NCBI GenBank assembly: GCA_005805305.1
Contig: SYMW01000044.1
Location: 1 to 47,408 of the forward strand
DNA: 47,408 nucleotides
Reading direction: 5' to 3'
Origin: Verrucomicrobiales bacterium
GTDB lineage: Bacteria; Verrucomicrobiota; Verrucomicrobiia; Limisphaerales; F1-80-MAGS106
In this document: piece by piece, positions 3,613 to 22,289 of the stretch
Position numbering within the stretch: position 1 is the first letter of the stretch
Layout of the letters: the number at the start of each line of letters is the position of its first letter
Position numbers and translations under genes: made by a program
Notes under the pieces: model-generated
Told to the model about the DNA's origin: nothing
Databases searched by the model: none
Seen by the model: the letters and a program-made list of their open reading frames with translations, nothing else

Positions 3613-3704
3613 AGTGACAAGATTCCGACCTGTTTCCTCGCCCCCATCGCCGGCCCCTGGCCGGGACTGTTGATCGGAATTCGAGCCGAGGAATCCTCTT
3701 TCTC

Positions 3705-4196
3705 ATGGAAACCCTCCACGCACCCTGGCGGATTCAGTACATTCTGGGCCCGAAAGAATCGCCTGGAGAGGTTTCCCTGTTCACCCGGATCGGTCAGTCC
3801 AGCGATGACATCGCTAATTTAGTCGTTGCCCGGGCGCGAACCTGTTTTGTCGTCATGAATCGCTATCCTTACAACGGAGGCCACCTCCTCGTGGCTCCGT
3901 ACAGGCAGACACCTGATTTGGACGGTTTGACGGACGAGGAATTGGCCGAGCTGTTCCGGCTTGTGAGGAATTGCCAGCAGGTGTTGCGTCGTGTCATGAA
4001 ACCAGATGGTTTCAACATCGGGATAAACATCGGCAAGGTCGCCGGGGCTGGCGTCGAGAACCACCTGCACGCGCACGTCGTGCCCCGCTGGAATGGGGAC
4101 ACGAACTTCATGCCGGTTGTTTCCGCCACGACCGTGCTGCCGGAAGCCCTTGAAGCATTGGGCGCGCGCCTCCGCGGCGCGTTCAACGAGTCCTGA
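3705..4196 (+). CDS. HIT family nucleotide hydrolase/phosphorylase
   Basis: 163 residues, the normal size for a single-domain HIT protein. The histidine triad is H120-L-H122-A-H124-V-V in NHLHAHVVPRW; the middle His is the nucleophile in this family. The N-terminal WRIQYI and the segment MNRYPYNGGHLLVAPYRQ match the branch annotated as diadenosine tetraphosphate phosphorylase-like or HIT hydrolase. It is a cytoplasmic enzyme expected to hydrolyse dinucleoside polyphosphates or nucleoside phosphoramidates; the exact substrate is not visible. A GAGG stands about 14 bases before the ATG. It is followed 7 bases later by phoH. Confidence 0.93.
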   Translation: METLHAPWRIQYILGPKESPGEVSLFTRIGQSSDDIANLVVARARTCFVVMNRYPYNGGHLLVAPYRQTPDLDGLTDEELAELFRLVRNCQQVLRRVMKPDGFNIGINIGKVAGAGVENHLHAHVVPRWNGDTNFMPVVSATTVLPEALEALGARLRGAFNES

Positions 4197-4203
4197 GGGG
4201 ATC

Positions 4204-5199
4204 ATGCGGCGAGTGAGAACCGATTCCCCATCCCAGCAGGCGATCGTCAAGGAGACGATGCACTTCGAGAGCGCCCGTTTCGCCCAGCAACTCTTTAACA
4301 ACGAGCCTCGAAACTTGCATGCGTTGCAGCGGGAGCTTGGAGTGGGCGCCACCGCTCGCGATGGTTGGATTTTGCTGGAGGGGCCCCCTGATTCAGTGGA
4401 GCACGTCAGGCAGATGTTTCTGGTTTTGAGCGATTCCCTGAAAGCGGGTGGCGCCGTCAGGAACCGGGACTTTTTGCAGGCGCTCGCAGTCCTCAAAGCC
4501 GACGGCGCTCCCGTTCTACAGAGCTTGTTCGCCACCCGGCTCCAAACCTCTCCCAAGAAGGGAGTCGTCACGCCAAAAACCGCCGGCCAGAAGGACTACA
4601 TTGAAGCCATCCGATCCAACGACGTGACGATGGGGATCGGGCCGGCCGGCACGGGAAAGACCTATCTCGCGATGGCCATGGCCGTGATGGCCTTGAAGGA
4701 GGAGAAGGTTTCACGAATCATCCTCACTCGCCCCGCGGTGGAAGCAGGCGAGGCGCTCGGGTTCTTGCCGGGAGATCTTTATGAGAAGATATCGCCGTAC
4801 CTCCGGCCGCTCCACGACGCGCTGTTAGATATGCTTCCGGCCGAGGAGATTCAGAAGCAGATGGAGCGCGGGAGTGTCGAAATCGCTCCGCTGGCCTACA
4901 TGCGCGGGCGGACCTTGAACAATGCTTTCATCGTTCTCGACGAAGCCCAGAATTCCACCGCGGAACAGATGTTCATGTTTCTCACCCGCTTGGGGCACGG
5001 ATCCAAGACCGTGGTCACCGGCGACCCCACGCAGATCGACCTCCCGGCGCACAAAAAATCGGGATTGCTCGAAGCGCGCGGCGCGCTCCGCAACGTGGAA
5101 GGGGTGGCTTTGGTTGAGTTCCAAAAGCGGGACGTGGTGCGGCACCCCCTCGTTCAGCGCATCATCCATGCCTACGAGACGCACCGTGCCAAAACGTGA
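4204..5199 (+). CDS. phoH: PhoH-like P-loop ATPase
   Basis: 331 residues from ATG 4204, chosen because GAGGGG precedes it and because the frame's earlier ATG at 4093 lies inside the HIT gene. The N-terminal part (about 15-80) resembles the small KH-like domain of PhoH proteins. Walker A is G146-PAGTGKT and Walker B is FIVLDEAQN at about 242-250, with the family motif RPAVEAGEALGFLPGD at about 176-191. PhoH-like ATPases are linked to RNA metabolism and are often found beside ybeY. Here the stop codon overlaps the GTG start of ybeY (GTGA, 5196-5199), so the two are translationally coupled. The HD-domain membrane protein often found between phoH and ybeY in other bacteria is absent. Confidence 0.96.
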   Translation: MRRVRTDSPSQQAIVKETMHFESARFAQQLFNNEPRNLHALQRELGVGATARDGWILLEGPPDSVEHVRQMFLVLSDSLKAGGAVRNRDFLQALAVLKADGAPVLQSLFATRLQTSPKKGVVTPKTAGQKDYIEAIRSNDVTMGIGPAGTGKTYLAMAMAVMALKEEKVSRIILTRPAVEAGEALGFLPGDLYEKISPYLRPLHDALLDMLPAEEIQKQMERGSVEIAPLAYMRGRTLNNAFIVLDEAQNSTAEQMFMFLTRLGHGSKTVVTGDPTQIDLPAHKKSGLLEARGALRNVEGVALVEFQKRDVVRHPLVQRIIHAYETHRAKT

Positions 5200-5783
5200 T
5201 TGAGTTCATCGTTCAGACCAGATTGAAGGGTTGGGAGATGGGGCCCGCGGCTTTCCGGCGCGCCGCGCGGCTGTTGGCCCCCGAGTGCCTCCCAGGGATG
5301 ACCGAAGGTGAAATCTCAATCTCCTTCCTTTCGGCGCTAAAAATGGCTCAAATCAACGAGTCCTATCTTGGCCACTCCGGGCCAACGGACGTGATTACCT
5401 TCGATTACTCGATTCCTTGCAGCGAACCAAACAGGCCAATTGCTAGCAGGGGAAACATTCCCGCCCCGGTGAGCCATTTCGTCGCCGGCGAGATTCTGAT
5501 TTGTCCTGAAGTAGCTGCCGCCCAAGGGTCTGCCTACGGCACGGGATGGAAGCTCGAAGTGCTTAGGTACTTGGCGCACGGGTTGTTGCATCTCGCGGGC
5601 CACGACGATCAAGAGCCATTGGCGCGGAGAGCCATGAAACTGGCCGAGGACGCGGCTGTGAAGCGGATAACCGCCGAGCTCAGCCCGGGTTGGGACGCGC
5701 CGGCGCGGGCTCGTCCGAAGGGGGGCAAACTTCAGATCCTCGGATCGTCTGCGGACGTTCCATTGAAGTATGAGCCCTCCTGA
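5196..5783 (+). CDS. ybeY: rRNA maturation endoribonuclease YbeY (variant metal site)
   Basis: 195 residues from GTG 5196. YbeY processes rRNA 3' ends and acts in ribosome quality control (family knowledge). Recognition rests on the ITFDY block after G-P-T-D-V (about 62-71) and the helix H128-G-L-L-H132-L-A-G-H136-D-D138. The usual motif is H-x3-H-x5-H; here the third position (138) is Asp and a His is found at 136, where E. coli has Tyr. This could be a shifted or altered zinc site. There is a C-terminal extension of roughly 50 residues after the motif, rich in charged and small residues. It is coupled to phoH by the GTGA overlap. Confidence 0.9.
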   Translation: MIEFIVQTRLKGWEMGPAAFRRAARLLAPECLPGMTEGEISISFLSALKMAQINESYLGHSGPTDVITFDYSIPCSEPNRPIASRGNIPAPVSHFVAGEILICPEVAAAQGSAYGTGWKLEVLRYLAHGLLHLAGHDDQEPLARRAMKLAEDAAVKRITAELSPGWDAPARARPKGGKLQILGSSADVPLKYEPS

Positions 5784-8700
5784 ATCCGGAACCTGCGCCT
5801 GGCCTTTGAAAGGGCGGGCCGTTCGATCCCCAACCCGCGCCCTTCGGCTTCGCGCGGGGAACAAAAACCGGATCGGGCAGGATTCGCTACTGGGAGCCTT
5901 TCAGGCATCGAGCGTGCCGCTTTTCTGTCTCGTAGGGACAGGACGGGTTCACCCGTTTTTGCTCGCGACAATTGTTGGATTCCTGGCCGCATTCCCAGCC
6001 ATGGCTCAACCTGCCGTTTCGAATCGAGCGGGCATCCGGTTCAATGTCGCGGCACAGGGCTCGACAGCTCCAGGCTTCAAGCTGATGGACCCCAGACAGA
6101 CGGGGTTGGTGTTCACGAATCTGCTCTCGGAAAAGGAAGGCGCGGCGAACAGAACACTCTACAATGGTTCAGGAGTAGCGACGGGTGACTTGGATGGCGA
6201 TGGGCTGCCCGATCTGGTTTTCGCCAAGATCCTCGGGGGGATCGAAATCTTTAGAAATCTTGGAGGCTGGCGTTTCAGCAACATCACTTTGCAAGCCGGG
6301 CTCGCAGGGATGACTGTGCCCTCTCGCGGGGTCGTCTTGGCTGACGTGGATGGTGACGGCGCTCTGGATCTGCTTGTGTCCACCAATGGCAAGGGGGTCC
6401 AGTGTTGGCGCAACAAAGGCGGGGGTGTGTTTGTGGACGCCACCGTTGAGTCCGCCACGGCGAGCCTTCACGGGAGCACGACCCTCGCGCTGGCCGATGT
6501 GGATGGGAACGGGAGCTTGGATCTCTACATTACCAACAATCGCGCCGATGACATTCGCGATCAGGGGCAAGTCCAGTTGCGAATGCTCGGAGGGAAATTG
6601 ATCGTCCCCAAGCCGCTCGAAAATCGGTTGGTGATTATCGACGGCCAGCCTCAGGAGTACGGCGAGCCAGACCGTCTTCTCCTCAACGATGGAGAGGGCC
6701 GATTCAAGGAAATCAGTTGGATGAGTGGAACATTCCTGGACGAATCCGGACGCCCGCTCGTCCGGCCGCCTCTGGACTGGGGGCTTTCCGCGGCGTTTAG
6801 AGACCTCAACGGGGACGGCGCTCCAGATCTGTATGTCTGCAACGACTTTTGGACCCCGGATCGGCTGTGGATGAACGACGGAGCCGGCAGGTTTCGTTTG
6901 GCGCCTGAGCTGAGCCTCCGTCACACGAGCGGCAGTTCGATGGGCGTGGACCTCGCGGATCTGAACGCCGATGGGTTGCCAGAAATATTCGTCGTGGACA
7001 TGCTCAGCCGGCTGCCGTCTTGGCGGAAGCGTCAGCTCGCCGCGCAGCCCGCCAGGGCCGATCCTCCTGGCCTGGTGGCGAACCGTCCGCAAATACTTCG
7101 CAACACGCTTTTTCAGGCGCGGGGCGACGGAACCTATGCGGAGATTGCGGAACGCGCGGGGCTCGCGGCCGCCGAGTGGGCCTGGCAGCCCGTGTTCTTG
7201 GATGTCGATTTGGATGGTCATCAGGACGTCCTCATCACAACAGGACACATGCACGACGTTCAAGATCGTGATGCCGAGGCCATCGTGCGATCCCGACAAC
7301 GGAGCTTCCAGGGGATCGCCGATCCTGAGGAACGGCGGCGTGCGTTTCATCGGGACTTATTGGAAAATATGCTGGTGTATCCAGCTCTCCGCACGCCGAT
7401 TCTCGCTTTCCGCAACCGTGGCGGCCTGAGTTTCGAGGATGTCACCTCGCTTTGGGGGACCGAAGCGCCAGGGGTTCATCATGGAATTGCCACCGCGGAC
7501 TTCGACGGCGACGGTGATCTCGATTTGGCGGTTAACAATCTGAATTCAGGGGCAGCCTTGTACCGCAACGAGGCGATCGCTCCTCGGGTTGCCGTCCGGC
7601 TTCGAGGATCAACGCCCAATACCCAGGCTATTGGAGCGATTGTCACGATCGAGGGTGGCGCCGCTCCAAAACAAACCCAGGAAGTTGTGAGCGGGGGGCG
7701 CTATTTGTCTGGATCCGATCCTCTGCTGGTCTATGCGGCAGGGAGATCGGACGCAACGATGACGCTCGAAGTCCGCTGGAGAACCGGACGCGTTCGGCGC
7801 ATCGAAGGAGTGCAAGCCAGCCGGCTTTACGAAATCCAGGAGGACTCGGTTCAGAAGGACCCCTTTCCGGGAGCGATTCCGGCGGGGGAAGTGAAGCCTT
7901 TGTTCGAGGATATCAGCCACTGGTTGAAGCACACACATCTGGAGACTTGGTTCGATGATTTCGCGCGGCAGCCTCTGCTGCCGAGACGGTTCAGCCAGCT
8001 CGGGCCTGGTGTCGCGTGGGCCGACCTGGATGGCGACGGTTGGGAGGACCTCATCATCGGGACGGGGGCGGGTGGGACCGTGGCCGCCTACAAGAACGAG
8101 CGGGGTGAAAGATTCACGAAATGGACCCAGGCGCCCTTCAGCCAGGGCCAGGCGCGTGACACCACTGGACTTGCCGCGTTTCCCGGAGCGGGAGGCCGCC
8201 CGATCTTGCTCACGGGCACTGCCAACTATGAAGACTCCGTCACGAATGCCGCGTGCGTGTTTGAGCTCGCCCTTGACGCCATGGCTCCGCGGCCCTTCGT
8301 TCGGGATCTCCCCTCGAGTGTCGGCCCATTGGCGCTCGCTGATATGGACGCCGATGGAGATCTCGACTTGTTCATCGGAGCACGAGTCACCAGAGGGCGA
8401 TGGCCTGAGGCGAAGGGCTCTCTCGTCCTGCGTCGGGATGGAGATGCTTGGAGAGCAGATGAAGTGAATACTAAAGTCTTGGACGGCATAGGGTCCGTCT
8501 GCGGCGCTGTGTGGACGGATCTGAACAGAGATGGCTTTCCGGATCTGGTGGTCGCCGGTGAGTGGTCGCCGCTCCGCATTTTTCGCAATGAGAAGGGCCT
8601 CTTAGTCCCTTGGGATTGGCGGATCCGTTCTTCGGACAAGCCGGGAGCTCCTGTGCTGCTTTCAACTCTCACTGGCCTGTGGAATTCAGTGGCCGCGGGA

Positions 8701-9669
8701 GATTTCGACGGCGACGGGCAAATGGATTTAATCGCGGGCAATTGGGGTGAGAACTCAGCATGGCGCGCCTCATTGGAGCAACCGCTGACGCTGTTGGCTG
8801 GCAGTTGGCGTGGCTTAGAGTCGCTGGCGTTGATTGAGACCGAGTTCGATCCCGTGCGCCAGGCTCTAACGCCCTCGCGACCGCTTCCGGATCTCGTGAG
8901 CGAACTCCCCTTTTTAGCGGGCAAATTCGCGACGCACCACGCATATGCCGAAGCGACTCTTTCAGAGGTGTTGGGACCCGCGGAGGGGGAGGTGAATCGA
9001 TACTCTGCCACGACGTTGAAGTCGACTTTGTTTCTGAATCGTGGCGGTGAATTTGTGGTTCGAGAACTCCCGGCAGAGGCTCAAAATTCTCCTGTTTTCG
9101 GGATGACCGTCGCGGATTTTGACGGGAACGGCGCCGAGGATGTCTTTCTGGCGCAAAATTTTTTCGCCGTTCGTCCAGGCGATGCGCGTTTGGATGCCGG
9201 ACAAGGGTTGCTCTTGCTTGGCGATGGTCGTGGAAAGCTTCACCCGGCGTCCGGTGATTTTTCGGGACTAAGAATCCATGGCGAACAACGCGGCGCAGCG
9301 ACCGCTGACATCGATCACGACGGGCGCCCGGATTTGGTGGTGGCTCAGAACGGTTCGGCCACGCGCCTGTTCCGGAATCAGAGCGCCTCCGTGGGCATCC
9401 GCCTAAAGCTTCGTGGCACGCCCGGCAATCCGGATGGGGTGGGGGCCGTTGTGCGTCTCGGAAGAAGGGGACATTTTGGTCCCGCGCGGGAGATTCATGC
9501 AGGCGCCGGCTATTGGTCGCAAGACGCCGTCGTGAGCATTCTCAGCCGACAGGCGCTGACCAACGGTGGGGATCTCATCGTGGAGGTTCGATGGCCGGGA
9601 GGCAAATTGACATCGCACACGATCCCCGAAAACGCTCGCGAGCATGCGATTTCCCAAAACGTTCCATAA
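5770..9669 (+). CDS. Giant secreted FG-GAP/VCBS protein with two ASPIC/UnbV domains
   Basis: 1299 residues. Many FG-GAP/VCBS repeats carry acidic calcium-type loops (DLDGDGLPD, DVDGDGALD, DADGDLD), as in integrin-alpha-like propellers. The chain has two similar halves: repeats then an ASPIC/UnbV domain at about 603-690, and again repeats then a second UnbV at about 1208-1290. A hydrophobic export signal lies near residues 55-78 and ends at AMAQP. The start is uncertain: ATG 5770 overlaps ybeY by 14 bases and gives a long basic leader, while an in-frame GTG at 5914 would place the signal closer to the N terminus. A 7-bp GC stem (5834-5858) lies between these starts. Paralogous to the genes at 26532-30251 and 38854-42333. 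Binding target unknown. Confidence 0.92.
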   Translation: MSPPESGTCAWPLKGRAVRSPTRALRLRAGNKNRIGQDSLLGAFQASSVPLFCLVGTGRVHPFLLATIVGFLAAFPAMAQPAVSNRAGIRFNVAAQGSTAPGFKLMDPRQTGLVFTNLLSEKEGAANRTLYNGSGVATGDLDGDGLPDLVFAKILGGIEIFRNLGGWRFSNITLQAGLAGMTVPSRGVVLADVDGDGALDLLVSTNGKGVQCWRNKGGGVFVDATVESATASLHGSTTLALADVDGNGSLDLYITNNRADDIRDQGQVQLRMLGGKLIVPKPLENRLVIIDGQPQEYGEPDRLLLNDGEGRFKEISWMSGTFLDESGRPLVRPPLDWGLSAAFRDLNGDGAPDLYVCNDFWTPDRLWMNDGAGRFRLAPELSLRHTSGSSMGVDLADLNADGLPEIFVVDMLSRLPSWRKRQLAAQPARADPPGLVANRPQILRNTLFQARGDGTYAEIAERAGLAAAEWAWQPVFLDVDLDGHQDVLITTGHMHDVQDRDAEAIVRSRQRSFQGIADPEERRRAFHRDLLENMLVYPALRTPILAFRNRGGLSFEDVTSLWGTEAPGVHHGIATADFDGDGDLDLAVNNLNSGAALYRNEAIAPRVAVRLRGSTPNTQAIGAIVTIEGGAAPKQTQEVVSGGRYLSGSDPLLVYAAGRSDATMTLEVRWRTGRVRRIEGVQASRLYEIQEDSVQKDPFPGAIPAGEVKPLFEDISHWLKHTHLETWFDDFARQPLLPRRFSQLGPGVAWADLDGDGWEDLIIGTGAGGTVAAYKNERGERFTKWTQAPFSQGQARDTTGLAAFPGAGGRPILLTGTANYEDSVTNAACVFELALDAMAPRPFVRDLPSSVGPLALADMDADGDLDLFIGARVTRGRWPEAKGSLVLRRDGDAWRADEVNTKVLDGIGSVCGAVWTDLNRDGFPDLVVAGEWSPLRIFRNEKGLLVPWDWRIRSSDKPGAPVLLSTLTGLWNSVAAGDFDGDGQMDLIAGNWGENSAWRASLEQPLTLLAGSWRGLESLALIETEFDPVRQALTPSRPLPDLVSELPFLAGKFATHHAYAEATLSEVLGPAEGEVNRYSATTLKSTLFLNRGGEFVVRELPAEAQNSPVFGMTVADFDGNGAEDVFLAQNFFAVRPGDARLDAGQGLLLLGDGRGKLHPASGDFSGLRIHGEQRGAATADIDHDGRPDLVVAQNGSATRLFRNQSASVGIRLKLRGTPGNPDGVGAVVRLGRRGHFGPAREIHAGAGYWSQDAVVSILSRQALTNGGDLIVEVRWPGGKLTSHTIPENAREHAISQNVP
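5834..5858. other. Short GC hairpin near the FG-GAP gene start
   Basis: CCCGCGC (5834-5840) can pair with GCGCGGG (5852-5858) across an 11-base loop. There is no T-run. It lies just after the ybeY stop and before the in-frame GTG at 5914, so this stretch may be non-coding rather than the N terminus of the 1299-residue protein. Confidence 0.35.
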
Positions 9670-9815
9670 GGCCGACCCGGTTATTATTAATATAAACCTA
9701 GCCAAAGATATTTGAAATTTTAACCACGGATTTCACGGATTTCACAGGCGGACACGGGTGGGAAAAAAGAATTCTCTGGTTCCACCCCTATCCGTGACAC
9801 TACCTGCGGAAGTGT

Positions 9816-9933
9816 CACAGAGAGCACAGAGGCGGCAAGACCGGCTTGCTGATTAATTTCAACGTCCAACGGCTCAGTGACGGCATCCAGCGGTTCAAAC
9901 TCTGAACTCTCTGTGAACTCTGTGCTCTCTGTG
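9816..9933. repeat. 16-bp inverted repeat within 9-bp-period microrepeats
   Basis: The arms 9816-9831 and 9918-9933 are perfect inverse copies separated by 86 bases. Both arms consist of heptamers (CACAGAG or its complement CTCTGTG) plus two variable bases, giving a period of nine. It could form a cruciform or RNA hairpin, or be two opposed blocks of the same microrepeat family. Confidence 0.7.
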
Positions 9934-10055
9934 GTGAAGCCGAGACGAGTTCGAACAATCGAGTCGAACGACCCGCCTCTGAGCCTCGCCGTTTTGCTGC
10001 GGGCTGGGGGAGTTCGAAAGTTTATTCGGACCAATTGGCGGAACTGACAGCGGCG

Positions 10056-10145
10056 GTGGGTCACTCGTACCGTTATGCATGAAGACACAGGCAGACTTGA
10101 GTTTGGAGTCCCACGAGCCCTTTCGGGGCAGGTGTAGTGACCCAC
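10056..10145. repeat. 90-bp segment bounded by 10-bp inverted repeats
   Basis: GTGGGTCACT at 10056-10065 and AGTGACCCAC at 10136-10145 are perfect inverse copies. The interior has no gene that I recognise. The right arm ends 18 bases before the displaced LamG fragment. It may be a miniature element or chance; no target-site duplication is evident. Confidence 0.45.
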
Positions 10146-10163
10146 ACAAAGTTATAGGGAGGC

Positions 10164-10444
10164 CAAAATGATGCCATGCCTCATCGTTGACCGGGCCGCC
10201 TGCAGGGCCTTCACCGGTGCCACCGGCGTGGCCAAGGCCCGTTTCTCCACCACGGCGGTGGACGCGCCAGTTGCTGCCTTCCCATTGTGCGATCAACGCC
10301 TGCCAGGATTTGTCAAAGGTACCCACCTTGAACCAGCCCGCGACCGACATGCTCCCACCCTCAAAGGAGAGATCGCCGGGTTCGCCGCCGGACACTTCAA
10401 TGAACTGATCGATACCGTCGAGGGACAGGGCCTTGCCGAAGCTC
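10164..10444 (-). pseudogene. Displaced LamG-domain fragment (copy of 15939-16219)
   Basis: This 281-base stretch aligns without gaps to 15939-16219, inside the LamG domain of the minus-strand exoprotein gene at 13546-16482. A hand count gives about 16 mismatches (about 94% identity). Read on the minus strand it still encodes GGEPGDLSFEGGSMSVAGWF and GPVNDEAWHH, then loses homology at 10164. It has no signal peptide and no domain completion. The right-hand breakpoint is 3 bases after the stop codon of the small membrane protein gene. It is best read as a fragment copied or left behind by recombination, not a gene. Confidence 0.88.
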
Positions 10445-10446
10445 TT

Positions 10447-10911
10447 TCAGCCGAGATTTTGCGCGGTGATGAACACCGCAATGAAAAGTGCCACCGCGCC
10501 AACCGGAACCAAAAACACCCCCACCCCAGGATCACCGCCGTATGTTACTAAGCCCCCGAGGAAGAAGCCGCCGGGCAAGAGCACGCTCGCCGCTTTCAAA
10601 CTGGCCGAAGCGAGCCTCCTGGACGAATCACGCCAGCCGGTGATGTGTGGCAGGGTGACGGCAAACGCCACATGTACCAAGGCGAGCAGCGTTCCGTGCG
10701 CGTGTGCCAGTGTCCACATCAGCCGGCGCGTTCCGCTGGAAACACCCAGGTAAAGTCCCGCTTTCATCCCGTGCAAAATCTCCAGGCCGATCCCCAAGCT
10801 GAGGAACACGAGCAGGGACCACCAGCCAAACTGCAAATGCCGTCGAGAAAGCTGGGAATTATCAGGTGGCACCGGAGCGCGTGGCGTGGGCGGGTTGGTC
10901 TTGGTTTTCAT
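10447..10911 (-). CDS. Small integral membrane protein beside the octahaem cytochrome
   Basis: 154 residues with about four hydrophobic spans: about 29-50 (WWSLLVFLSLGIGLEIL), 67-86, 100-122 and 128-150. His residues lie in the second region (LAHAHGTLLALVHVAF) and could bind haem or metal, but this is inference. I do not recognise the family. The start ATG follows the cytochrome stop by one base (TAAGATG on the minus strand), so the two are almost certainly one transcript and translationally coupled. It may serve as a membrane partner for the cytochrome. The stop lies only 3 bases from the breakpoint of the LamG fragment, so C-terminal truncation is possible. Confidence 0.75.
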   Translation of the reverse strand: MKTKTNPPTPRAPVPPDNSQLSRRHLQFGWWSLLVFLSLGIGLEILHGMKAGLYLGVSSGTRRLMWTLAHAHGTLLALVHVAFAVTLPHITGWRDSSRRLASASLKAASVLLPGGFFLGGLVTYGGDPGVGVFLVPVGAVALFIAVFITAQNLG

Positions 10912-10912
10912 C

Positions 10913-12850
10913 TTATTCCTGCAAGTCCATGGAAATGTTGTTTCGTTCTTTCAACAAGCGATCGAGTGCGTCGCGATTCAGCTTGCCTTCCGCATCGAGC
11001 AAAATCTGGGCGCGGGTTTGTCCGCCGCGAGTGTTTTGGCGGCTTTGCCAGAGTTGCAAAAGGTTCGTCTTCGCCGCCAGCCAATCCGCCTCTGGCCCCA
11101 CGAAGTCGTAGTTCAGTGTTTGGAATTCGCCCGCCAGGGACTTCAACGAACGGTGGGCGATGTAGCGGACAGACGAATACGAATCGGTCATTAACTCCGC
11201 GAGGAACGGTGTGAGCCAGTCTTTGCCGGATGCTGTTTGCGCCGGTTCCCAGCCCATCGCCCAGGCGATCAACGCCCGTTGCCCCGCCTCGCCTTTGGCC
11301 AAATCCAGCACGGCGGCGGAGGTGGCTCGCTGTTCTTCGCTCAACTTGGCTGCGGGCTGGCCGTACCACTGGGTCAGGTGTCTTGCGGTCCATTCCAAGG
11401 TTTGATCAAGATGGCAAAGGTTGCACGCGTTTTGCCGCCCGGTCTTGAGCGTGGAAGACACGGTCGGGCTATCGATCTGATGGCTGCGAATGGTTTTGAG
11501 CAAACCGTAAGTCGTGTGTGGCATGTGGCAATTGTAGCAAAGGCTGCCGCTCGAACCCGCGGCGTGCCGCGTGTGCTGAGTTAATTTGTCGCCGATGGAC
11601 GTATGGCACTGCAGGCACGCCTGGTTTCCCTCCCTGCCAAGCGCGATCTGGTCATCGCGGTCGATGCTTTTGTGCATGGAATGACAGGACAAACAGGACA
11701 GCTCTCCGCGCTGGTGGCAGGGAGATTCGATCAAGCCATTGTACTCTCGGCCAGACACTCGGACCATGCCGTCCGGCCAGTAGCGATCACGGAGAAACTC
11801 CGGACTTTGTTTGAGCGGCTGGGTGAGCCACGGCTGTTCGTTCAAACGGGTCGGGCGCACGACGGGCTCGGTTTGGGCCAGCTCCTGGCCAGGGCGGTAG
11901 CGGAATCCATTTTCAAGATAATCCTCGCGGTTCGGAATCCACTTGATGCTGTGGCACTGGCCGCAGATTTGGGAGGAGGCCTTGCTCGGCAGTTTGGCGG
12001 GATTGACCATGTGGGGGTCGGGCTCGACGGAGAAGTGGCGCGCGTAACGGTTGAGGAAATTCTGGTTCGCGCGGATGTGGTCCTCGCTGGGGCCGTGACA
12101 TGCCTCGCAGGCGATGCCCAACTCACCGGAGCGTGTTTCAAATTGCATTTGCTGCTGGTTGGGGAGCGGCTGGCCGCCGGTCGCGTGGCAATTGATACAA
12201 TTCAGATTCCAGGTTTGTTTTGACGGCGGGATTGCCGGGTCGCGCAGAAAAGTGTTGTGAAACGGCACCCATCGCTGGTCGGCGTTGAGCCAGGCGAAGG
12301 GAAAAAGAAGCTGGCCGTTGCCCCGCGCGCTCGGCACCCAATATGCCTGCATGTGATGCGAGCCGGTGAGCAAACCGAGTCGTCGCTGAACCCGCGGCGC
12401 AGGCTGGATCGCTCCGCGCGGCGGCTCCCATTCCGGGTCTTCCAGGTCGGCCCAAAATTCCCCGCCACGTCGTTCGAGGAAATAAGTTTTCCCCAGCAAC
12501 TCCAGCTTCACGTTGTCAAAATTCCCCAGGACGGTGTTTGGCGCGGCCACTTGGGTCATCGTGCGGTGATACGTCTGATGCCATGAATCATATTGGCTCG
12601 GATGGCACGATCGGCAGTTGTCGGAGGAAACGTATCCATCGGGTCGGTTTTGCTGAGGGACGGTTGCGAGAAACCGCGCGTCGGATTCCGCGCGGCGGGT
12701 CAAATGCCGTTCCCAGAGGAATCCTCCGCCCAGGGTCAAAACCACCACCACCAGGCCCGCCTGCCAAGCCCGGCCCCGCAGGCCGCTCCTCAAAAAAAAC
12801 CACGCTCCGGCGGCCAGCAAGCTCGCGAAGAACAGCCATTCAAAACTCAT
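10913..12850 (-). CDS. Membrane-anchored octahaem cytochrome c
   Basis: 645 residues from ATG 12850 (GGAG about 10 bases upstream); an earlier frame start at 12895 would only add a leader. Two N-terminal hydrophobic segments (about 5-21 and 31-46) are followed by an exported part with eight CxxCH haem sites: 79 CRSCH, 218 CINCH, 248 CEACH, 296 CGQCH, 386 CLSCH, 412 CLQCH, 438 CYNCH and 476 CNLCH. The first, in SDNCRSCHPSQYDSW, resembles the cytochrome c554-like fold. The last 165 residues lack haem sites and look helical and HEAT-like (SVRYIAHRSLKSLAGEF). The likely role is electron transfer on the outer face of the inner membrane. Donor, acceptor and any catalytic activity are unknown. Confidence 0.92.
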   Translation of the reverse strand: MSFEWLFFASLLAAGAWFFLRSGLRGRAWQAGLVVVVLTLGGGFLWERHLTRRAESDARFLATVPQQNRPDGYVSSDNCRSCHPSQYDSWHQTYHRTMTQVAAPNTVLGNFDNVKLELLGKTYFLERRGGEFWADLEDPEWEPPRGAIQPAPRVQRRLGLLTGSHHMQAYWVPSARGNGQLLFPFAWLNADQRWVPFHNTFLRDPAIPPSKQTWNLNCINCHATGGQPLPNQQQMQFETRSGELGIACEACHGPSEDHIRANQNFLNRYARHFSVEPDPHMVNPAKLPSKASSQICGQCHSIKWIPNREDYLENGFRYRPGQELAQTEPVVRPTRLNEQPWLTQPLKQSPEFLRDRYWPDGMVRVSGREYNGLIESPCHQRGELSCLSCHSMHKSIDRDDQIALGREGNQACLQCHTSIGDKLTQHTRHAAGSSGSLCYNCHMPHTTYGLLKTIRSHQIDSPTVSSTLKTGRQNACNLCHLDQTLEWTARHLTQWYGQPAAKLSEEQRATSAAVLDLAKGEAGQRALIAWAMGWEPAQTASGKDWLTPFLAELMTDSYSSVRYIAHRSLKSLAGEFQTLNYDFVGPEADWLAAKTNLLQLWQSRQNTRGGQTRAQILLDAEGKLNRDALDRLLKERNNISMDLQE

Positions 12851-13477
12851 ATGCGTCTCGCTCCGCCAGCCAGCACGACATCCGATCGGTCTCAAGGTGA
12901 AAGGCTGTCATGTTTCCAGCGGGTCAAGAGTTAAGAAAAGCCCAACGGTCAGGCAAGGAAATTGCCCCCAGATCAATGAAAGCGCGGTTTCATTACGTCT
13001 GAGAATCTGCTGATATTCCGAGAGGCCGGCTAAAAACCGTTTGCTTCGCTTCGAGAGTCTCGCTGACAAAACCGAACTTTTGACATTGGCAGCGCACTGA
13101 TCAGCGCGGAAAAGGCCTCTGTCGCCAGCGACATCGCCGAGGCGCTCGGCGGTTTTAATGATAGATTTTACTGATACAAAGCTCTTCCTAAATGACTGAC
13201 TGGTAGGATTTTGCTTTTTCATGGGCAGACCCGACCATAGGCGTCCGAGCTTTTGAGACAAAATAAAAAGAGTTCTGGAATCAGCCTCCCCAACTTCGGC
13301 GGTCGCCGAAGCTGAACAGTGACAATAAAACCAGGGGACAGGCGACTGATCCGTCGGCGCAAGACACGTTGCATCGATGTGCAATCGATCAATAGTCCTC
13401 CATACCCAGGCCAAGGCGCTTTGCTACGGGTTTATCGGGCATGGGTATGGTTTCCAATCTTGCTGGCAATGGTTGTG
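12851..13477. other. Gene-free stretch between cytochrome and exoprotein genes
   Basis: About 630 bases. A 168-codon minus-strand frame (12908-13414) is open but shows no recognisable domain, no signal peptide and no ribosome site. I see no clear repeat. It should hold the promoter for the minus-strand cytochrome gene near its 12.85-kb end. The other end is the terminator of the exoprotein gene. Confidence 0.55.
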
Positions 13478-13511
13478 AAAAAAAAAGGGCCGGACAGTGA
13501 CGTCCGGCCCT
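13478..13511 (-). terminator. Intrinsic terminator of the LamG/PA14 exoprotein gene
   Basis: AGGGCCGGAC (13486-13495) pairs perfectly with GTCCGGCCCT (13502-13511) around a 6-base loop. On the minus strand the stem is followed by nine T residues (plus-strand A-run 13478-13486). It lies 34 bases after the stop codon of the gene at 13546-16482, the position and form expected of a Rho-independent terminator. Confidence 0.92.
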
Positions 13512-13545
13512 ATGCCTGCCAATATGAGTCCGTTAGTCCTATAGA

Positions 13546-16482
13546 CTACGGCTTGCCTCTAAAGAACTTCGCTGCACCTGCAGCATCAACGTCGTCTCCG
13601 CTCTTGATGTTGGTGTCGGTATACGGACCTTCGACCTTGTCAGCGCTTTGAATAACGCCAGCACCCGTGAAGCTGATCTTGACTTTGCCTACACCGCTTG
13701 CAGCGGCTTTAAGACCTGTAATAGCACCACCACCAGCCGGCAGTGTCTGTGCCTCGTCCCGGCTGCGGAACGCTTTGATCGCTCCGGCCGTGGCGCTGTT
13801 GATGAGGACCCGCACTCCAGCGTTGACCGTAAACCACTCCGCGTTTGCTCCACCGCCGCCTTCGTACCAGATCATCCGCATCGGGTAAACTCCCGCGACT
13901 GGAACAAGGAAGCTGAAGATGGTGTCCGCGGCACCGCGGCCGCCGCTGAAGATACCGAGGGGACGGACAGTAGCGTCTGCCTTTGTCACGGGCTTGACGT
14001 TGAACCCGTCATCGCTGTTGACACCCATCGTGATAACACCTGCCGGCAGATCCAAGTAGGTGAGCACCTCCTGCGAGAAGTTGTCGGTGCCTCCAGAGAT
14101 TCCAGGAATCGGTTGGTCTTCAAAACCATTGCCAGCATTGAAGCGACCAACCGCGTTCGGTGCGTCTTGGTTGAAGTTGATGACGCCTTCGTGATGGAAG
14201 AAGCCACCATTCGGGCCAGCGTCAGCGACGTTCGGGTCTCCCATATTGTCAAGCAACTGTTGTTCAGCCGCCCTATCGGAGTTTTCTCGACCGGTCTCCC
14301 TCTGCACTGTCCGGATGCGGAAGCCTGCGTCCTTGCCTGAGCCAGGCTTCGTTCCAATCGCGGTGGATAATGTGATGTAGTCGGCGACCTCGAATGACCA
14401 TTCAAGTGCCTTGGGGTTGCCGCCTGGATCAGGATACGTGAGTTTGACGGTATGAGCTGATTTCGGAGGGAGCACAGCGCCAGGCGTGTAGGTGATTGTC
14501 GCCGTCGTCCCATCTTTAACGACGGTCGGTTTCACCGAGGCGCCGTCAAACATCAAGGAAACGTTTTCAGCCGTCCAAGGAGTTTTGCCGTCGGTATGAA
14601 CAACCGTGATCACGGGGAGCGGACCGGCAGTTTTGGATTTTGCCGCCGGGCTTATAGTTCCGAATTTGCCATCAGGATCCAACGGCAGGTCGACCGCAGC
14701 GGAGAGGAATTTACCTGGGATCGGAACGAGCGATGCTGCTGGCGTTGCATCCCCATCCTTACGCCAAGCAACCCGACCGTAGTCGCCGCCGCCGCCTTCT
14801 TTATAGGCGAGACGAATGAAATAGCTCCTGTTGGCTACGAGCGCAATCGGATCGGAAGTTTTCGTGACACCCGGCTCGGCGAAATTTCCGCAGCACCCAG
14901 TTTCTTCGGCGATTTGCACCAGATTGGCTTCCTTGTCGTCGGTGCTCAACCAAAGACGCGAGGAATCGTCGCTATGGATGAAAAACGTGTAATTGCCACT
15001 TTCGGTGGGCTTGACGAGCCCTTCTATGGTGGCGCCATAATTATCCTTCGCGTCAGTGGGGAACGCATCGCGGCTCGTGAAGGAGAACAAAGGAAGCACC
15101 TGATTCGGTGTCTTCGAGATGTACCGCGGGTGATCCAGGAGGGTATCAATTGGATTGGCCCCATTCAGAGAACCGGCCACATCTTCAGGGAACATTTTCA
15201 AGTCGACGGCCCACCAGGCGAAGCGGAGCATGCCCGTTCGGCCCGTGAGGTATGAATAAACGGTCACTTTGGTTCCGGCAGCAACCTCGTTCTTGGAGGT
15301 GTCTTTGACGCCCGCGAAGGTCACCGTGTAGGCAGTGGCGCCGGGCGTCTGATCGGCCGTGGTCAGCGTCGCCACCTTTTTAGCGTAGGTGACACCGGTG
15401 ACCGCGAGGGCCGGGGAGATCCCATAATTCGCCGCGGCAGTCGCCGTTGCGGGATCCAGTTCTTCCGAGAAGGTGATGGCGATCGTCTTGAGGTTGCTGC
15501 CTGTGACGGCTGACACGATGGTCGGCTTGGTCACGTCCACTGGATCGGTGCCGGCCTTGTATTCATCCAGATTTGTCGCGCCGTCTTTGTCGAAGTCTAG
15601 CGCCGCGTCAGCCTTGTCGTTGGGATTGAATCCGTATTGTTTTTCAAAGTCATCGGGCATTCCGTCGCTGTCCGCATCGGCGAGTACCACCCCTAGCGCC
15701 TCGGAGAGCGGTCTGGACCTCAATATCTTGATTTCGTCTTCTGTGATGACGCGTTTCCAGATGGCGATGTCGTCCAGCAGACCGTTCCAGGAACGGTTTC
15801 CGGTATCGGGATTGTCGCCGATTTTCACCCTCTTACCATTGTTGGCCAGGTTGGCTGGGTTTGCGTTTTCGGTATAGACCTCGCCGTCGATATACAGCCG
15901 GGTGCCGAAGTTGGCAGCATCTTTATCACTGATGGCGACAAAATGATGCCATGCCTCATCGTTGACCGGGCCGCCTGCCGGGCCTTCTCCTGTGCCACCG
16001 GCGTGAGCAAAGCCTGATTCTCCACCACGGCGGTGGACGCGCCAGTTGCTGCCTTCCCCTTGGGCGATCAACGCCTGCCAGGATTTGTCAAAGGTGCCCA
16101 CTTTGAACCAGCCCGCGACCGACATGCTCCCACCCTCAAAGGAAAGATCACCAGGTTCGCCGCCGGACACTTCAATGAACTGATCGATACCGTCGAGCGA
16201 CAGGGCCTTGCCGAAGCTCGGGAGGTGGCTGTTGACAAAGGTGCTGGTTGTATCCGTTCCTTGCTGGGTGCCGTCGAATTTCACCGCACCCCCGGCAGTA
16301 TCCTTCAGATCGCCGTTAAAGTTCCAGTAAGCTACCAGATCATTTTTCAGCGACTGGGCGTGAAGGCTGGCACCGACCAAGAGTGGCACCATCGCTACGC
16401 AAACTCGTAGCCCCTTGGCCCACACCTTTCTTTGCGTACTTATAAACTCTAATGTCTGAACTTGACGCTTGTTGGTTTTCAT
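13546..16482 (-). CDS. Secreted modular LamG/PA14 exoprotein
   Basis: 978 residues. Signal peptide about 22-43, ending SLHAQS. Then a LamG/concanavalin-like domain (about 45-258), a calcium-binding linker DADSDGMPDDFEKQYG...DFDKDGATNLDEY (about 268-313), an SbsA-type Ig-like domain (about 319-408), a PA14 domain (about 415-595) with D505-D506 and C530-C531, another Ig-like domain (about 610-705), a second PA14-like region with NSDDG (about 715-905), and a C-terminal module (about 915-978). PA14 domains of yeast adhesins bind glycans through an Asp-Asp calcium motif (family knowledge), so surface or glycan binding is plausible. Apart from one Cys in the signal peptide, the CC pair is the only cysteine. 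No catalytic domain was seen. Part of its LamG domain is duplicated at 10164-10444. Confidence 0.92.
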   Translation of the reverse strand: MKTNKRQVQTLEFISTQRKVWAKGLRVCVAMVPLLVGASLHAQSLKNDLVAYWNFNGDLKDTAGGAVKFDGTQQGTDTTSTFVNSHLPSFGKALSLDGIDQFIEVSGGEPGDLSFEGGSMSVAGWFKVGTFDKSWQALIAQGEGSNWRVHRRGGESGFAHAGGTGEGPAGGPVNDEAWHHFVAISDKDAANFGTRLYIDGEVYTENANPANLANNGKRVKIGDNPDTGNRSWNGLLDDIAIWKRVITEDEIKILRSRPLSEALGVVLADADSDGMPDDFEKQYGFNPNDKADAALDFDKDGATNLDEYKAGTDPVDVTKPTIVSAVTGSNLKTIAITFSEELDPATATAAANYGISPALAVTGVTYAKKVATLTTADQTPGATAYTVTFAGVKDTSKNEVAAGTKVTVYSYLTGRTGMLRFAWWAVDLKMFPEDVAGSLNGANPIDTLLDHPRYISKTPNQVLPLFSFTSRDAFPTDAKDNYGATIEGLVKPTESGNYTFFIHSDDSSRLWLSTDDKEANLVQIAEETGCCGNFAEPGVTKTSDPIALVANRSYFIRLAYKEGGGGDYGRVAWRKDGDATPAASLVPIPGKFLSAAVDLPLDPDGKFGTISPAAKSKTAGPLPVITVVHTDGKTPWTAENVSLMFDGASVKPTVVKDGTTATITYTPGAVLPPKSAHTVKLTYPDPGGNPKALEWSFEVADYITLSTAIGTKPGSGKDAGFRIRTVQRETGRENSDRAAEQQLLDNMGDPNVADAGPNGGFFHHEGVINFNQDAPNAVGRFNAGNGFEDQPIPGISGGTDNFSQEVLTYLDLPAGVITMGVNSDDGFNVKPVTKADATVRPLGIFSGGRGAADTIFSFLVPVAGVYPMRMIWYEGGGGANAEWFTVNAGVRVLINSATAGAIKAFRSRDEAQTLPAGGGAITGLKAAASGVGKVKISFTGAGVIQSADKVEGPYTDTNIKSGDDVDAAGAAKFFRGKP

Positions 16483-16626
16483 TTGATTTTTTTATCCCCA
16501 ATCGAAGACGCTAAGGTCGAGGTCGCCGCACCAATGACGACAAGCTGGTAATCTTCAACGGTGGCAAGTTTTTAATATGGGGCTCGGTTCGGATCAAGCA
16601 GAAAGTCTTGTTTCAATGGCTGCAGG

Positions 16627-16746
16627 GTGCATCTCGAAGTTGTTGGTAAAAAGCATGCCGGCTCCGGAGCGCTGACTTGCAATCCGCAGCGGGTGGATTC
16701 GGCGCGGGGAAGGCCCGCGGCCTGAACCAACAACTTCGAGATGCAC
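16627..16746. repeat. Perfect 20-bp inverted repeat with 80-base spacer
   Basis: The arm 16627-16646 (GTGCATCTCGAAGTTGTTGG) is the exact inverse of 16727-16746. The GC-rich spacer has no gene. The arms are too far apart for a simple terminator. A miniature mobile element or a regulatory cruciform is possible. The dispersed element at 16750 starts 3 bases later. Confidence 0.8.
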
Positions 16747-16749
16747 GGA

Positions 16750-16886
16750 TTTGCAAAAGCCTGGATGAGAAAGGCTTGACGAGGAGCGAGGCCTATGCTT
16801 TATGGGTCTGATGAGTGATTCGGAAAGACTTCATCGCCAGGATCTTGCGAAGATTCAACTGAGGCAACTGCCGTTTTAAGGTTGAC
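16750..16886. repeat. Dispersed palindromic element, copy A (left arm missing)
   Basis: It aligns without gaps to 32009-32145 with about 83% identity by hand count. Conserved blocks include GCCTGGATGAGAAAGGCTTG, ATTCGGAAAG, CAGGATCTTGCGAAGATTC and AACTGCCGTTTTA. The right arm (16865-16878) is present. The left arm seen in copy B is absent, replaced by the 20-bp inverted repeat. Confidence 0.8.
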
Positions 16887-16961
16887 CCAATTTCCTCACG
16901 GATTCTACTTTGGCCGGATGATCGCCACTTCGTGATTTCTCAGAAAAGAAAGACCGGTTCA

Positions 16962-18407
16962 ATGACTGACTCCGGTATTGGTCGGCTGGACACCTCGGGA
17001 CGTTTCTGCGCATTGAGGCGTCTGCTTGCCGTTCCGTCGGTCGTGGCGCTGGCAGCGACGGCTGGCATGGGTTGTGGGCCACAAACTGAACCCGCCCAGG
17101 CGCGAGCTCCGGTGGCGCCGGGTTCTAGTGTGGCCGCCGCAGCCGTTCCCGCTGCGCCGCATGTGGCGGCGCCAAAACCCCCAGCGCAGCCGCCCCAGGT
17201 CGAAGCAGAGCAATTGAAAAAGGGCGCTATAGCGATCGCCGAGCGGGTGGCGGCGGCTTACCCGGACGATGCCCTTTCTTACGCACTTTTAGGGTCGGCC
17301 TATTTCAATACCGGACAGACGGAGGCCGCCATCCAGCACCTCAAACGCTGTCTTGGGCTCAATCCGAATCAACTTGAGGCCTACGAAATCCTGGCCCGCG
17401 TGGCCTATGAAAAGGGGGAGCCGGAGGAAACGGTACGGTTGAGCGGGGAGGTGCTGAAGCGCGGGGCGGCGACGCCTGACGTTTTGAATCGTTTGGGAAG
17501 GGCTCTGATGGACTTGGGGCGGACGGAAGATTCGGTTCGCACGCTCCGACAGGCGACCCAGCTACGGCAGGCCGTCAGCGAAAGTTTTTATCTCTTGGGC
17601 CAGGCGCAGATGCAGGGGGGCGCTCCGGCTGAGGCCAAGGCAAGTTTTCAACAGGCGATTGCGCGGTCGCCGGAGCATACCCAGGCATTTTTCGGCCTCT
17701 ACACCGCCTGCCAAAAGCTGGGTCAGGCGGATGAGGCTGCGCGCTATCGGGAGCAATTTGCGAGACTGGAGGCGGTAAATCGGAAGGAACTCACGGACCG
17801 GAATGCGGACGAGGAAACACTGACCGGCCTCCCCATGGTTCGCGAAACCGTGGCACGCACCTTCTTCGGGGCCGGGCAGATCTATGGCAGTCATGAGGCG
17901 CTTGAAGAGGCGAGCGAGAATCTCAGGCGGGCCGCGGTTCTGGACGCGGGAAACCCGGCCTATCGGGCCGCCCTGGAGTCGCTGTATGTCCAGCGGAAGA
18001 TTCCCGCGGCTGGGCTCAAGGCGTTCCAGCAGTTGATAGTGCAACAACCCGGAAATCCGCTGAACTCCCTGTACCTAGGGCGGTTTCACGCCCGCCTTGA
18101 AGACTTTGAAGCGGCGGAGAGGGCTTATAACCATGTGCGAACCTTCGCGCCTGATCAGGTGGTGGGACATCTGGCACTGGCGGAACTCTACATGCGGATG
18201 AACCGGAAGACTGCCGAGGCCCCTGGGTTGCTTCGTCGGGTTCTGCAACTAGAGCCCAGCGGTCAAAACTTTTATCTTCTGGCGATGGCTTATATGAAAA
18301 TTAAGAACCGCACAGAGGCTTTGGAGGCCGTGCAACAGGCCCTGGCCCGGAATCCCGGCAACCAGCGGTACGAACAGCTCCGTCAACAGATCCAGGCCCA
18401 GCCCTAG
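16962..18407 (+). CDS. Exported TPR protein
   Basis: 481 residues from ATG 16962, preferred over the in-frame GTG at 16932 because of the purine-rich AAGAAAGA before it. A hydrophobic segment (about 21-37) ends in GMGC38, a weak lipoprotein box (Gly rather than Leu/Ala at -3). A Pro/Ala-rich spacer (to about 80) is followed by TPR helices almost to the end, for example ALLGSAYFNTGQTEAAIQHL and LLGQAQMQGGAPAEAKASFQ. It is probably an envelope scaffold. It is separated by one base from the next FG-GAP/UnbV gene, and TPR proteins beside FG-GAP/UnbV proteins are common in Planctomycetes and Verrucomicrobia, so a shared complex is a reasonable inference. Confidence 0.87.
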   Translation: MTDSGIGRLDTSGRFCALRRLLAVPSVVALAATAGMGCGPQTEPAQARAPVAPGSSVAAAAVPAAPHVAAPKPPAQPPQVEAEQLKKGAIAIAERVAAAYPDDALSYALLGSAYFNTGQTEAAIQHLKRCLGLNPNQLEAYEILARVAYEKGEPEETVRLSGEVLKRGAATPDVLNRLGRALMDLGRTEDSVRTLRQATQLRQAVSESFYLLGQAQMQGGAPAEAKASFQQAIARSPEHTQAFFGLYTACQKLGQADEAARYREQFARLEAVNRKELTDRNADEETLTGLPMVRETVARTFFGAGQIYGSHEALEEASENLRRAAVLDAGNPAYRAALESLYVQRKIPAAGLKAFQQLIVQQPGNPLNSLYLGRFHARLEDFEAAERAYNHVRTFAPDQVVGHLALAELYMRMNRKTAEAPGLLRRVLQLEPSGQNFYLLAMAYMKIKNRTEALEAVQQALARNPGNQRYEQLRQQIQAQP

Positions 18408-18408
18408 C

Positions 18409-20277
18409 ATGAGACCGAGGCACTCAAAGCGGCGGCCTTGGCGGTGGATGACGCTGCTCTCGGATCGGCCGCTCTCTCATTGGGTGAACTGTTTTGGCGC
18501 TGAGAACTCTCATTCGGGCGGTTCATTTTCGCGTGGTTCGCGTGGTTCGCGGTTCATCCCAACCGCGGTTTCTAGGTTCACTCCGATCTCGCTCCTTGTC
18601 TTGCTGCTCGCGGCCCCATTTCTCCTCCCGCCCGTCTGGAGTGCGGTGTCTCCAAAAAATTCAATCCAACTGACCGATGTCACTGGACGGTCCGGAATCA
18701 GTTTCATCCACACGGATGGAAGTTCCGGCCGGCGCTACATTGTCGAGACTGTGGCGTCCGGCCTGGCGACGTTTGATTTCGACGGCGACGGGTTAATCGA
18801 CATCCTGTTTCTCAATGGCGCGCCCCTCCCGGGTTCGCCCACCAATAGTCCGCCGGCGCGAAATGCCCTTTATCGCAACGAGGGAAACTGGAAATTCAAG
18901 GACGTGACCGAAGCGGCGGGACTGGCCGATCACGAATATCACCTGGGAGTGTGCGTGGGTGACTATGACAACGACGGCCATCCCGATGTTTACTTGAACA
19001 ACTTTGGGCGAAACATCCTTTACCGAAATACTGGACGCGGGACCTTTACCGATGTGACGCGGGAGGCCGGCGTGGAGGTGACCGATCATGTTGGTGCCGG
19101 GGCCTGTTTTTTGGATATGGACGGGGACGGGGACCTGGACTTGTTTGCAGCCAATTATGTCGAATTCACGTTTGAGAATCACAAGACTTCGATCATGAAC
19201 GGCTTTCCAGCCTACGTGGGACCCCTTCAATATCCAGCCACTTCCAACCGGCTGTTCCGAAACGACGGAAAGGGAAAATTTACGGACGTGAGCCTCAGTT
19301 CGGGCATCGCTGCCCAACGCGGCTCCGGCATGGGTGTGATTGCGGCGGATCTAGACAACGACGGAGACACCGATATCGTGCTGGCCAACGATCTTCGACC
19401 CAATTTCGTCTGGCTGAACGATGGCACCGGGAAATTCAAAGAAGTCGGCGCGCTGCTCGGGCTGGCCTACGACTCCTCTGGAAATGTCCAGGGTAACATG
19501 GGTGTGGAGTGCGCCGACTGGAACCATGACGGATGGCTTGATTTCTATATCACCACCTATCAACGGCAGTTTTCAACGCTTTACCAGAACAACAAAGGGC
19601 TATATTTTGATGACGCCACGCGGGTAACCGGAGCCGGGACGGGCACCTATCCGCATGTAACCTGGGGCACGGGCATCATCGATCTGGATAACGACGCGCA
19701 TCGGGATTTGTTTATTGCCTGCGGTCATCTGATCGACACCGTGGATGAATTTGATGATACGACGAGTTATCACGCGCGGAATATTGTGCTCCGAAACACG
19801 GGAGGGGGAAGGTTTGAGAATGTCTCAGCCCAGTGTGGCGACGGCCTGTTGCCCAAGCTGAGCAGCCGCGGCGCTGCCTTTGACGATCTCGACAACGACG
19901 GTGACGTGGATGTGGTCGTGCTGAATTCGCGGCGCGAACCGACTTTGCTCAGAAACGACTCCAGCCGGACCAACCATTGGGTGCAATTTCGCCTCCAGGG
20001 CGTCAAAACCAATCGGGACGGCGTGGGCGCGCGAGTGACCGTGGTGTCGGGCGATCTTACCCAGATCGGTGAAGTTCACAGCGGACGCAGCTACCAGAGC
20101 GATTTCGGTAAATGCCTGCATTTCGGTTTGGGTCCACGTGTGAAGATCGACGAAGTCCGAGTGAAGTGGATCGGTGGCGGCGTGGATGTCGTGCGCAACA
20201 TCGGTGTGGACCATCGATGGACCCTTGTGGAAGGTCGCGGCGCGGTGTCGTCGGCGGAGCAGATCAAGGCGCCATGA
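18409..20277 (+). CDS. Secreted FG-GAP/UnbV (CRTAC1-like) protein, first tandem copy
   Basis: 622 residues. The leader is long and basic, then a hydrophobic export segment (about 63-80, ISLLVLLLAAPFLLPPVW). FG-GAP repeats with DFDGDGLIDI, DYDNDGHPDV, DMDGDGDLDL, DLDNDGDTDI and DLDNDGDVDV loops fill about 90-520. A C-terminal ASPIC/UnbV domain spans about 523-605 (GVGARVTVVSGD, HSGRSYQSDFG). The leader is partly encoded by a 9-bp-period microrepeat (18528-18552), so the true start may be downstream. The start lies one base after the TPR stop, and the stop overlaps the next gene as ATGA. It is the tandem paralog of the next gene. Role unknown; calcium-dependent binding is family inference. Confidence 0.92.
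   Translation: MRPRHSKRRPWRWMTLLSDRPLSHWVNCFGAENSHSGGSFSRGSRGSRFIPTAVSRFTPISLLVLLLAAPFLLPPVWSAVSPKNSIQLTDVTGRSGISFIHTDGSSGRRYIVETVASGLATFDFDGDGLIDILFLNGAPLPGSPTNSPPARNALYRNEGNWKFKDVTEAAGLADHEYHLGVCVGDYDNDGHPDVYLNNFGRNILYRNTGRGTFTDVTREAGVEVTDHVGAGACFLDMDGDGDLDLFAANYVEFTFENHKTSIMNGFPAYVGPLQYPATSNRLFRNDGKGKFTDVSLSSGIAAQRGSGMGVIAADLDNDGDTDIVLANDLRPNFVWLNDGTGKFKEVGALLGLAYDSSGNVQGNMGVECADWNHDGWLDFYITTYQRQFSTLYQNNKGLYFDDATRVTGAGTGTYPHVTWGTGIIDLDNDAHRDLFIACGHLIDTVDEFDDTTSYHARNIVLRNTGGGRFENVSAQCGDGLLPKLSSRGAAFDDLDNDGDVDVVVLNSRREPTLLRNDSSRTNHWVQFRLQGVKTNRDGVGARVTVVSGDLTQIGEVHSGRSYQSDFGKCLHFGLGPRVKIDEVRVKWIGGGVDVVRNIGVDHRWTLVEGRGAVSSAEQIKAP
18528..18552. repeat. 9-bp tandem microrepeat inside a leader sequence
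   Basis: Two exact units TTCGCGTGG followed by TTCGCGG. It resembles the intergenic units at 9728-9745 in period and form. Being nine bases long, the units keep the reading frame and add Arg/Gly/Ser residues upstream of the signal peptide of the FG-GAP protein. Confidence 0.7.
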
Positions 20278-21998: not shown

Positions 21999-22289
21999 GC
22001 GCCGGACAAATCGTGGTGACTCAGCGCTTCCGACGCCGGTGGGTATGCCCCGAGGTTTTATCCTTCAAACCGCAGTGGCTCCAGTTCGATCTTCTTCCGA
22101 GGCCATTTCGAGGTTCGAGAGGGCTCTCAGCCTCTTAATTGAAAGTCCCCAGAGTGAGGTTTTCCTTGGCTTATACCTGTCTTCAACTGAAAACAGCACA
22201 GAACCTTCGGATTGAACGCGTGAATCGATCTTGACCCTTTCAATGAAGCTCATTAGAACTGTTACCACCCTGTCAAAACATCAGATATT
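21999..22289. other. Intergenic region before the discoidin-repeat gene
   Basis: About 290 bases with no gene. It contains the promoter-like sequence at 22231-22259. No terminator with a T-run was found after the FG-GAP gene. Confidence 0.6.
22231..22259 (+). promoter_or_regulatory. Possible sigma-70-type promoter
   Basis: TTGACC (22231-22236) and TAGAAC (22254-22259) are separated by 17 bases, 31 bases before the ATG of the discoidin-repeat gene. They match 5/6 and 4/6 of the E. coli consensus. The promoter rules of this organism are not known, so this is only suggestive. Confidence 0.35.

Follow-up and report, generated by a model that had tools for sequence, protein, structure and literature searches.

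A displaced slice of a LamG exoprotein gene in a convergent gap of a Verrucomicrobiales genome

How does an internal piece of a secreted-protein gene come to lie between two other genes of the same contig, and does it serve any purpose there? The window analysed here is a whole contig (C2, 47,408 nucleotides) of a Verrucomicrobiales draft genome, which comprises 4.56 Mb in 319 contigs and is about 82% complete.

The fragment and its intact counterpart

Positions 10164-10444 (minus strand) align with positions 15939-16219 (minus strand) in 265 of 281 bases (94.3%; BLASTN E value 1.4e-122). Exact alignment thereby bears out the 94% identity, free of gaps and in the same orientation, that the original prediction had claimed. 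The sharp edges of the block hold as well: outside it similarity is at background level, with 27 of 120 matching bases upstream and 37 of 120 downstream. The longest identical run between the two copies measures 44 bases. A search of the draft genome found the block only in these two copies (query 10044-10564; all 31 of 31 candidates scored).

The matching block spans approximately codons 89-181 of the 978 codons of an intact exoprotein gene (13546-16482, minus strand; 2937 bp), in which Pfam finds Laminin_G_3 (PF13385), Big_5 and PA14. The displaced fragment is an internal slice of the LamG part; the remainder of the domain is missing, and the slice has no start, no signal peptide and no stop of its own. 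With homology to only a part of the intact gene (281 of 2937 bp, with sharp ends) it would fall among the truncated pseudogenes, which it also resembles in being a partial, startless copy of a gene whose intact form lies elsewhere and in lying in a convergent gap among repeats. Bacterial intergenic DNA carries gene fragments and truncated pseudogenes, and the fragment looks like ordinary pseudogene debris of this sort with a modest evolutionary twist. Unlike a copy that was dead at duplication, its donor is suggested by the substitution pattern to have been a separately evolving functional version.

The LamG frame of the fragment is open throughout, contains no internal stop, continues the reading frame of the adjacent membrane-protein gene beyond its TGA and stays open past the fragment down to position 9895. 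This speaks for the idea that the fragment is used: it might encode a translated tail made when ribosomes read through the TGA, lengthen the 3' end of the operon transcript, or serve as a store for gene conversion. We consider any such use very improbable. Agreement of the frames has a one-in-three chance, and the ORF 9895-10395 reaches 20.0 bits for Laminin_G_3, below the curated cut-off of 27.6 bits, compared with 81.6 bits for the intact gene. Two of the replacements in the fragment fall on invariant positions, the C-termini of relatives of the membrane protein vary in length, the block is found at none of their 19 loci (all described below), and a search of the window against Rfam gave nothing at gathering scores. 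That the second copy might seed gene conversion of the intact LamG gene, as had been proposed, is speculation, with identical runs of 44 bases at most and no converted tract seen. Annotators should be warned against calling a LamG gene at 9895-10395.

Three further types of paired or repeated sequence were considered and rejected. Silent cassettes for gene conversion come as several donor copies, with mosaic tracts in the expressed gene; here one partial copy was found, and no mosaic tract was seen by eye. In diversity-generating retroelements the differences are confined to adenines of the template copy, while the changes observed here affect all four bases in either copy and fall mostly on third codon positions. 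Against a mobile element (insertion sequence or MITE), no target duplication, no matching ends and no further copies were found, and one of the two block copies lies inside a gene. No inverted repeat joins the ends of the fragment; an imperfect 15-nt pair is located within it (10226-10240/10428-10442).

The convergent gap and its repeats

The fragment lies inside a gap of 777 bp. On one side is the gene of an FG-GAP/ASPIC-UnbV protein (5770-9669, plus strand; Pfam), on the other a small membrane-protein gene (10447-10911, minus strand; 154 aa, no Pfam match), upstream of which a multihaem cytochrome-like gene is found (10913-12895, minus strand; ORF list and Pfam). The FG-GAP/ASPIC-UnbV gene is convergent with both. 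As had been predicted, the fragment adjoins the stop of the membrane-protein gene, but two bases lie between them rather than three (stop codon 10449-10447, end of the match 10444); the figure of three comes from subtracting the coordinates. Compared with 19 relatives (19 loci taken from 24 places found in other genomes), the C-terminus of the membrane protein looks native, with tail lengths that vary among the relatives. As the protein ends much like its relatives, the fragment apparently did not truncate it.

Outside the fragment the gap is made largely of dispersed repeats. Positions 9718-9799 hold a repeat common to the same-genus genomes G001 and G002 (73-82%). The stretch 9836-9956 is 91% alike to a place on contig C323 of G002, and stretches overlapping it recur on four more G002 contigs at 81-92% and on a fifth at 73%. 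At 9949-10078 follows a repeat of about 120-130 bp that occurs at three other places of the genome itself (C191, C57 and C116) at 83-85%. The 85 bases that lead up to the fragment (10079-10163) gave no match elsewhere in searches of this genome and of the genus. The patch of small palindromes that had been noted at this end is weak: a perfect 10-bp inverted repeat is present (10056-10065/10136-10145), but the region 9994-10170 folds no better than shuffled sequences (z -0.52; 65 of 200 shuffles equalled or surpassed it). The fragment resembles the dispersed short repeats of the genome, such as 9949-10078 and 16748-16886, in being short and intergenic, with copies roughly 80-95% alike. It differs from them in having one partner, which is protein-coding.

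Several other repeats were observed in the window. The repeat at 16748-16886 (about 135 bp) has a second window copy at 32007-32145 (83% alike) and accounts for 42 of 45 own-genome matches listed for 3700-22200, mostly 84-90% alike; its count is a lower bound (at least 42; best 40 of 430 candidates), as own-genome searches with long queries scored the best 40 candidates, and it has no Rfam match at gathering scores. A repeat of about 40 bases (20291-20330) has many copies in the genome, mostly 90-100% alike. Just 3' of the intact exoprotein gene, 13205-13312 is 88% alike to C119:10042-10149 and may be one more dispersed repeat. Several internal repeats, about 73% alike at the DNA level, occur in a gene with an F5/8-type C match (22374-24218); four can be made out by eye in its translation. 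Positions 18466-18581 match C275:27214-27329 in 111 of 116 bases. A second displaced gene piece was considered here and rejected; we judge it a probable dispersed repeat, because it lies 5' of the probable signal peptide of ORF 18409, whose true start is probably further downstream, and because it abuts another repeat at C275. Finally, the last 141 bases of the window (47268-47408) are identical to the last 141 of contig C3 on the same strand, which looks like an assembler word overlap, with both contigs entering the same sequence.

Substitutions between the two copies

The 16 differences between the copies comprise 12 synonymous changes at third positions and four codons with a residue change. 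Twelve synonymous third-position changes out of 16 exceed the expectation of one third (P 0.0008), and codon counting gives a dS of 0.215, a dN of 0.019 and a dN/dS of 0.09. If the fragment had decayed neutrally since the split, with arms of equal length, about 23 replacements would be predicted on its arm, whereas the total found is four (Poisson P 1e-6). When three sequences are fitted to a codon model with equal arms, the lnL is -597.7 for a fragment dead ever since the split and -592.2 for one with free omega (2 x delta lnL 10.9). Both the replacement counts and the codon model thus reject a copy that has been dead since the split on arms of equal length. The four replacements against some 23 expected indicate that the donor was probably still functional during its divergence from the resident gene.

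With unequal arms, a fragment that was dead throughout can be accommodated: on an arm of 0.04 for the fragment and 0.54 for the gene, the lnL is -590.9 versus -590.8 for the best fit. This model places nearly all synonymous change on the resident gene. It needs unequal rates, however, because both copies reside in one genome, and for this reason we favour a donor that was evolving as a functional gene up to the release of the slice. The pattern suggests that somewhere, be it in this lineage or another, there was a second functional version. Codon-level comparison can thus help to part a copy that died at duplication from a slice of a separately evolving gene, even at 281 bp.

The nearest relative, G287, has 78.6% of its bases in common with the gene and 79.7% with the fragment; its base is kept by the fragment at seven sites, by the gene at four and by neither at five. 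Judged against this nearest outgroup, four changes fall on the side of the fragment with the gene unchanged, one of them synonymous and three replacements. Pooled over 34 homologous segments, the gene's base was matched 216 times, the fragment's 155 times and another base 169 times. Since this pooled count favours the gene and the outgroup is near synonymous saturation, single polarity assignments are weak. Two replacements in the fragment (codons 142 and 159) occur at bases that are invariant in all 34 segments (29 loci), so that the fragment now looks unconstrained, as expected of a recently released sequence, but the dN/dS of 0.09 over all differences is low.

Where the slice may have come from

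We favour, with moderate confidence, the interpretation that the 281 bp are a dead slice from the LamG part of a diverged exoprotein gene version, which would have been placed here by non-homologous (illegitimate) recombination and would now be functionless. According to this scenario, a version of the gene diverged while still functional. The source of the slice could be either a related strain, whose allele was acquired by DNA uptake, or a paralogue that has been lost or is missing from the assembly. The slice would then have entered the non-coding convergent gap as one insertion by illegitimate recombination and now lie unused. The recent recombination that had been suggested from the sequence is therefore supported as far as a fairly recent displaced fragment is concerned (no gaps, no stop, four residue changes), while its mechanism is only favoured.

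The junctions show no target duplication: no shared bases abut the ends, and no 5-mer is shared within 15 bases of them. The motif GGGAGG is common to the site just before the fragment and the site just after the block in the gene, but chance alone gives a 6-base match in 2.6% of draws of two random 15-mers from the window, and with five comparisons made we do not use it as evidence. Short-patch double illegitimate recombination is the name given to one such mechanism; none of the papers listed in our literature search contains this name in full, while one on natural transformation (PMC5312590) has its abbreviation once. The genome encodes a ComEC-type competence protein. It allows DNA uptake without showing it, and as 10 of 14 control genomes also gave a ComEC match, its presence says little. 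No Ku homologue was found in the draft, and the control search found Ku in 1 of 14 genomes. The Ku and ComEC results do not decide the mechanism. For E. coli, illegitimate recombination was judged the likely origin of most short variable segments (PMC2884548). Like the segments described there, the fragment is short, with no target duplication found and no mobile element recognised. That study compares strains, whereas for our fragment an empty-site strain is not at hand.

The main rival to an insertion is decay in place: a full second exoprotein gene may once have stood in the gap beside the membrane-protein gene, with deletions from both sides leaving 281 bp. This agrees with the second functional version that the substitution pattern suggests. 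Such neighbourhoods do occur, as contig C37 of the same genome carries a distant exoprotein homologue near an FG-GAP/ASPIC gene. In addition, L040, a locus from another genome among the 19 with the membrane protein, matches bases 799-935 of the exoprotein gene at 69%, outside the LamG block. But a remnant needs at least two deletions, one of which ended within two bases of the stop of an intact neighbour. Searches of the gap found no other piece of the exoprotein gene, and DNA resembling the LamG block was found at 0 of the 19 membrane-protein loci at E values up to 1e-6. Loss of a second exoprotein gene at this site, as had been predicted, is thus possible, but only this slice is listed in the gap and no near-identical second copy was found in the genus; we regard it as an unlikely, though serious, alternative.

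An insertion of a diverged slice raises the question of its donor, and none was found in searches of the genus, the order or species genomes. The comparison with related genomes that had been recommended did not reveal a full-length second exoprotein: the three genomes of the genus (drafts, 62-93% complete) yielded no near-identical copy, the best others being at most 61% alike, and the homologue in G001 matches the exoprotein only from codon 261 on. Among 320 genomes of the order (best 8 candidates per genome), the best LamG relative has 78% protein identity and comes from a different family. When 84,980 species genomes were scanned by pattern, an alignment query yielded 46 loci, with 77% protein identity at best, probably the same locus as the best one in the order; an earlier scan with the whole exoprotein had given 17 pattern matches and no confirmed relative. 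Most of the 46 loci are titled Verrucomicrobia or relatives (two drafts Akkermansia), a few Planctomycetes or Phycisphaerae. Second LamG matches are present in 12 of the 46, at 25-60% protein identity and some of them partial. Self-repeats of at least 80 bases and 85% identity occur in L182 and L201 only, where they adjoin or overlap each other outside the LamG matches. Plasmid records gave no match to 9670-10460, and none of the 20 stretches in viral records that matched the LamG pattern was confirmed as a relative.

Of five related stretches that were read for gene order, L104 and L108 resemble the window in that the cytochrome precedes the membrane protein, L105 and L106 have the reverse order, and L107 shows the membrane protein only. 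An FG-GAP/ASPIC relative is found only in L106, and there on the other side. As L104 and L108 did not show this neighbour, a comparable empty gap is not at hand.

The fragment could also be an artefact, namely a chimera of assembly or library in which reads from the allele of a co-occurring strain were wrongly joined into the contig. The draft is fragmented and incomplete, a divergence of 6% is possible for a strain variant, and 281 bp appears close to the length of a short-read fragment. However, a chimera needs two clean wrong joins, which makes it less likely. Moreover, the assembler may have used words of 141 bases, as the one overlap with C3 hints, whereas identical runs between the copies do not exceed 44 bases, and two replacements at invariant positions are unexpected of a live allele. 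We therefore consider a chimera quite improbable.

By itself, the fragment matters little. The slice might be the fossil of an allele replacement through transfer between lineages, in which the exoprotein gene gave way to a diverged allele and a part of either one, the old or the incoming, became trapped nearby. We put this forward as a rather unlikely possibility, although a mobile exoprotein gene would fit a best match of 78% outside the family, same-genus matches of at most 61% and a G001 homologue that starts to match at codon 261. If it is true, the fragment would record an allele replacement in a secreted LamG protein.
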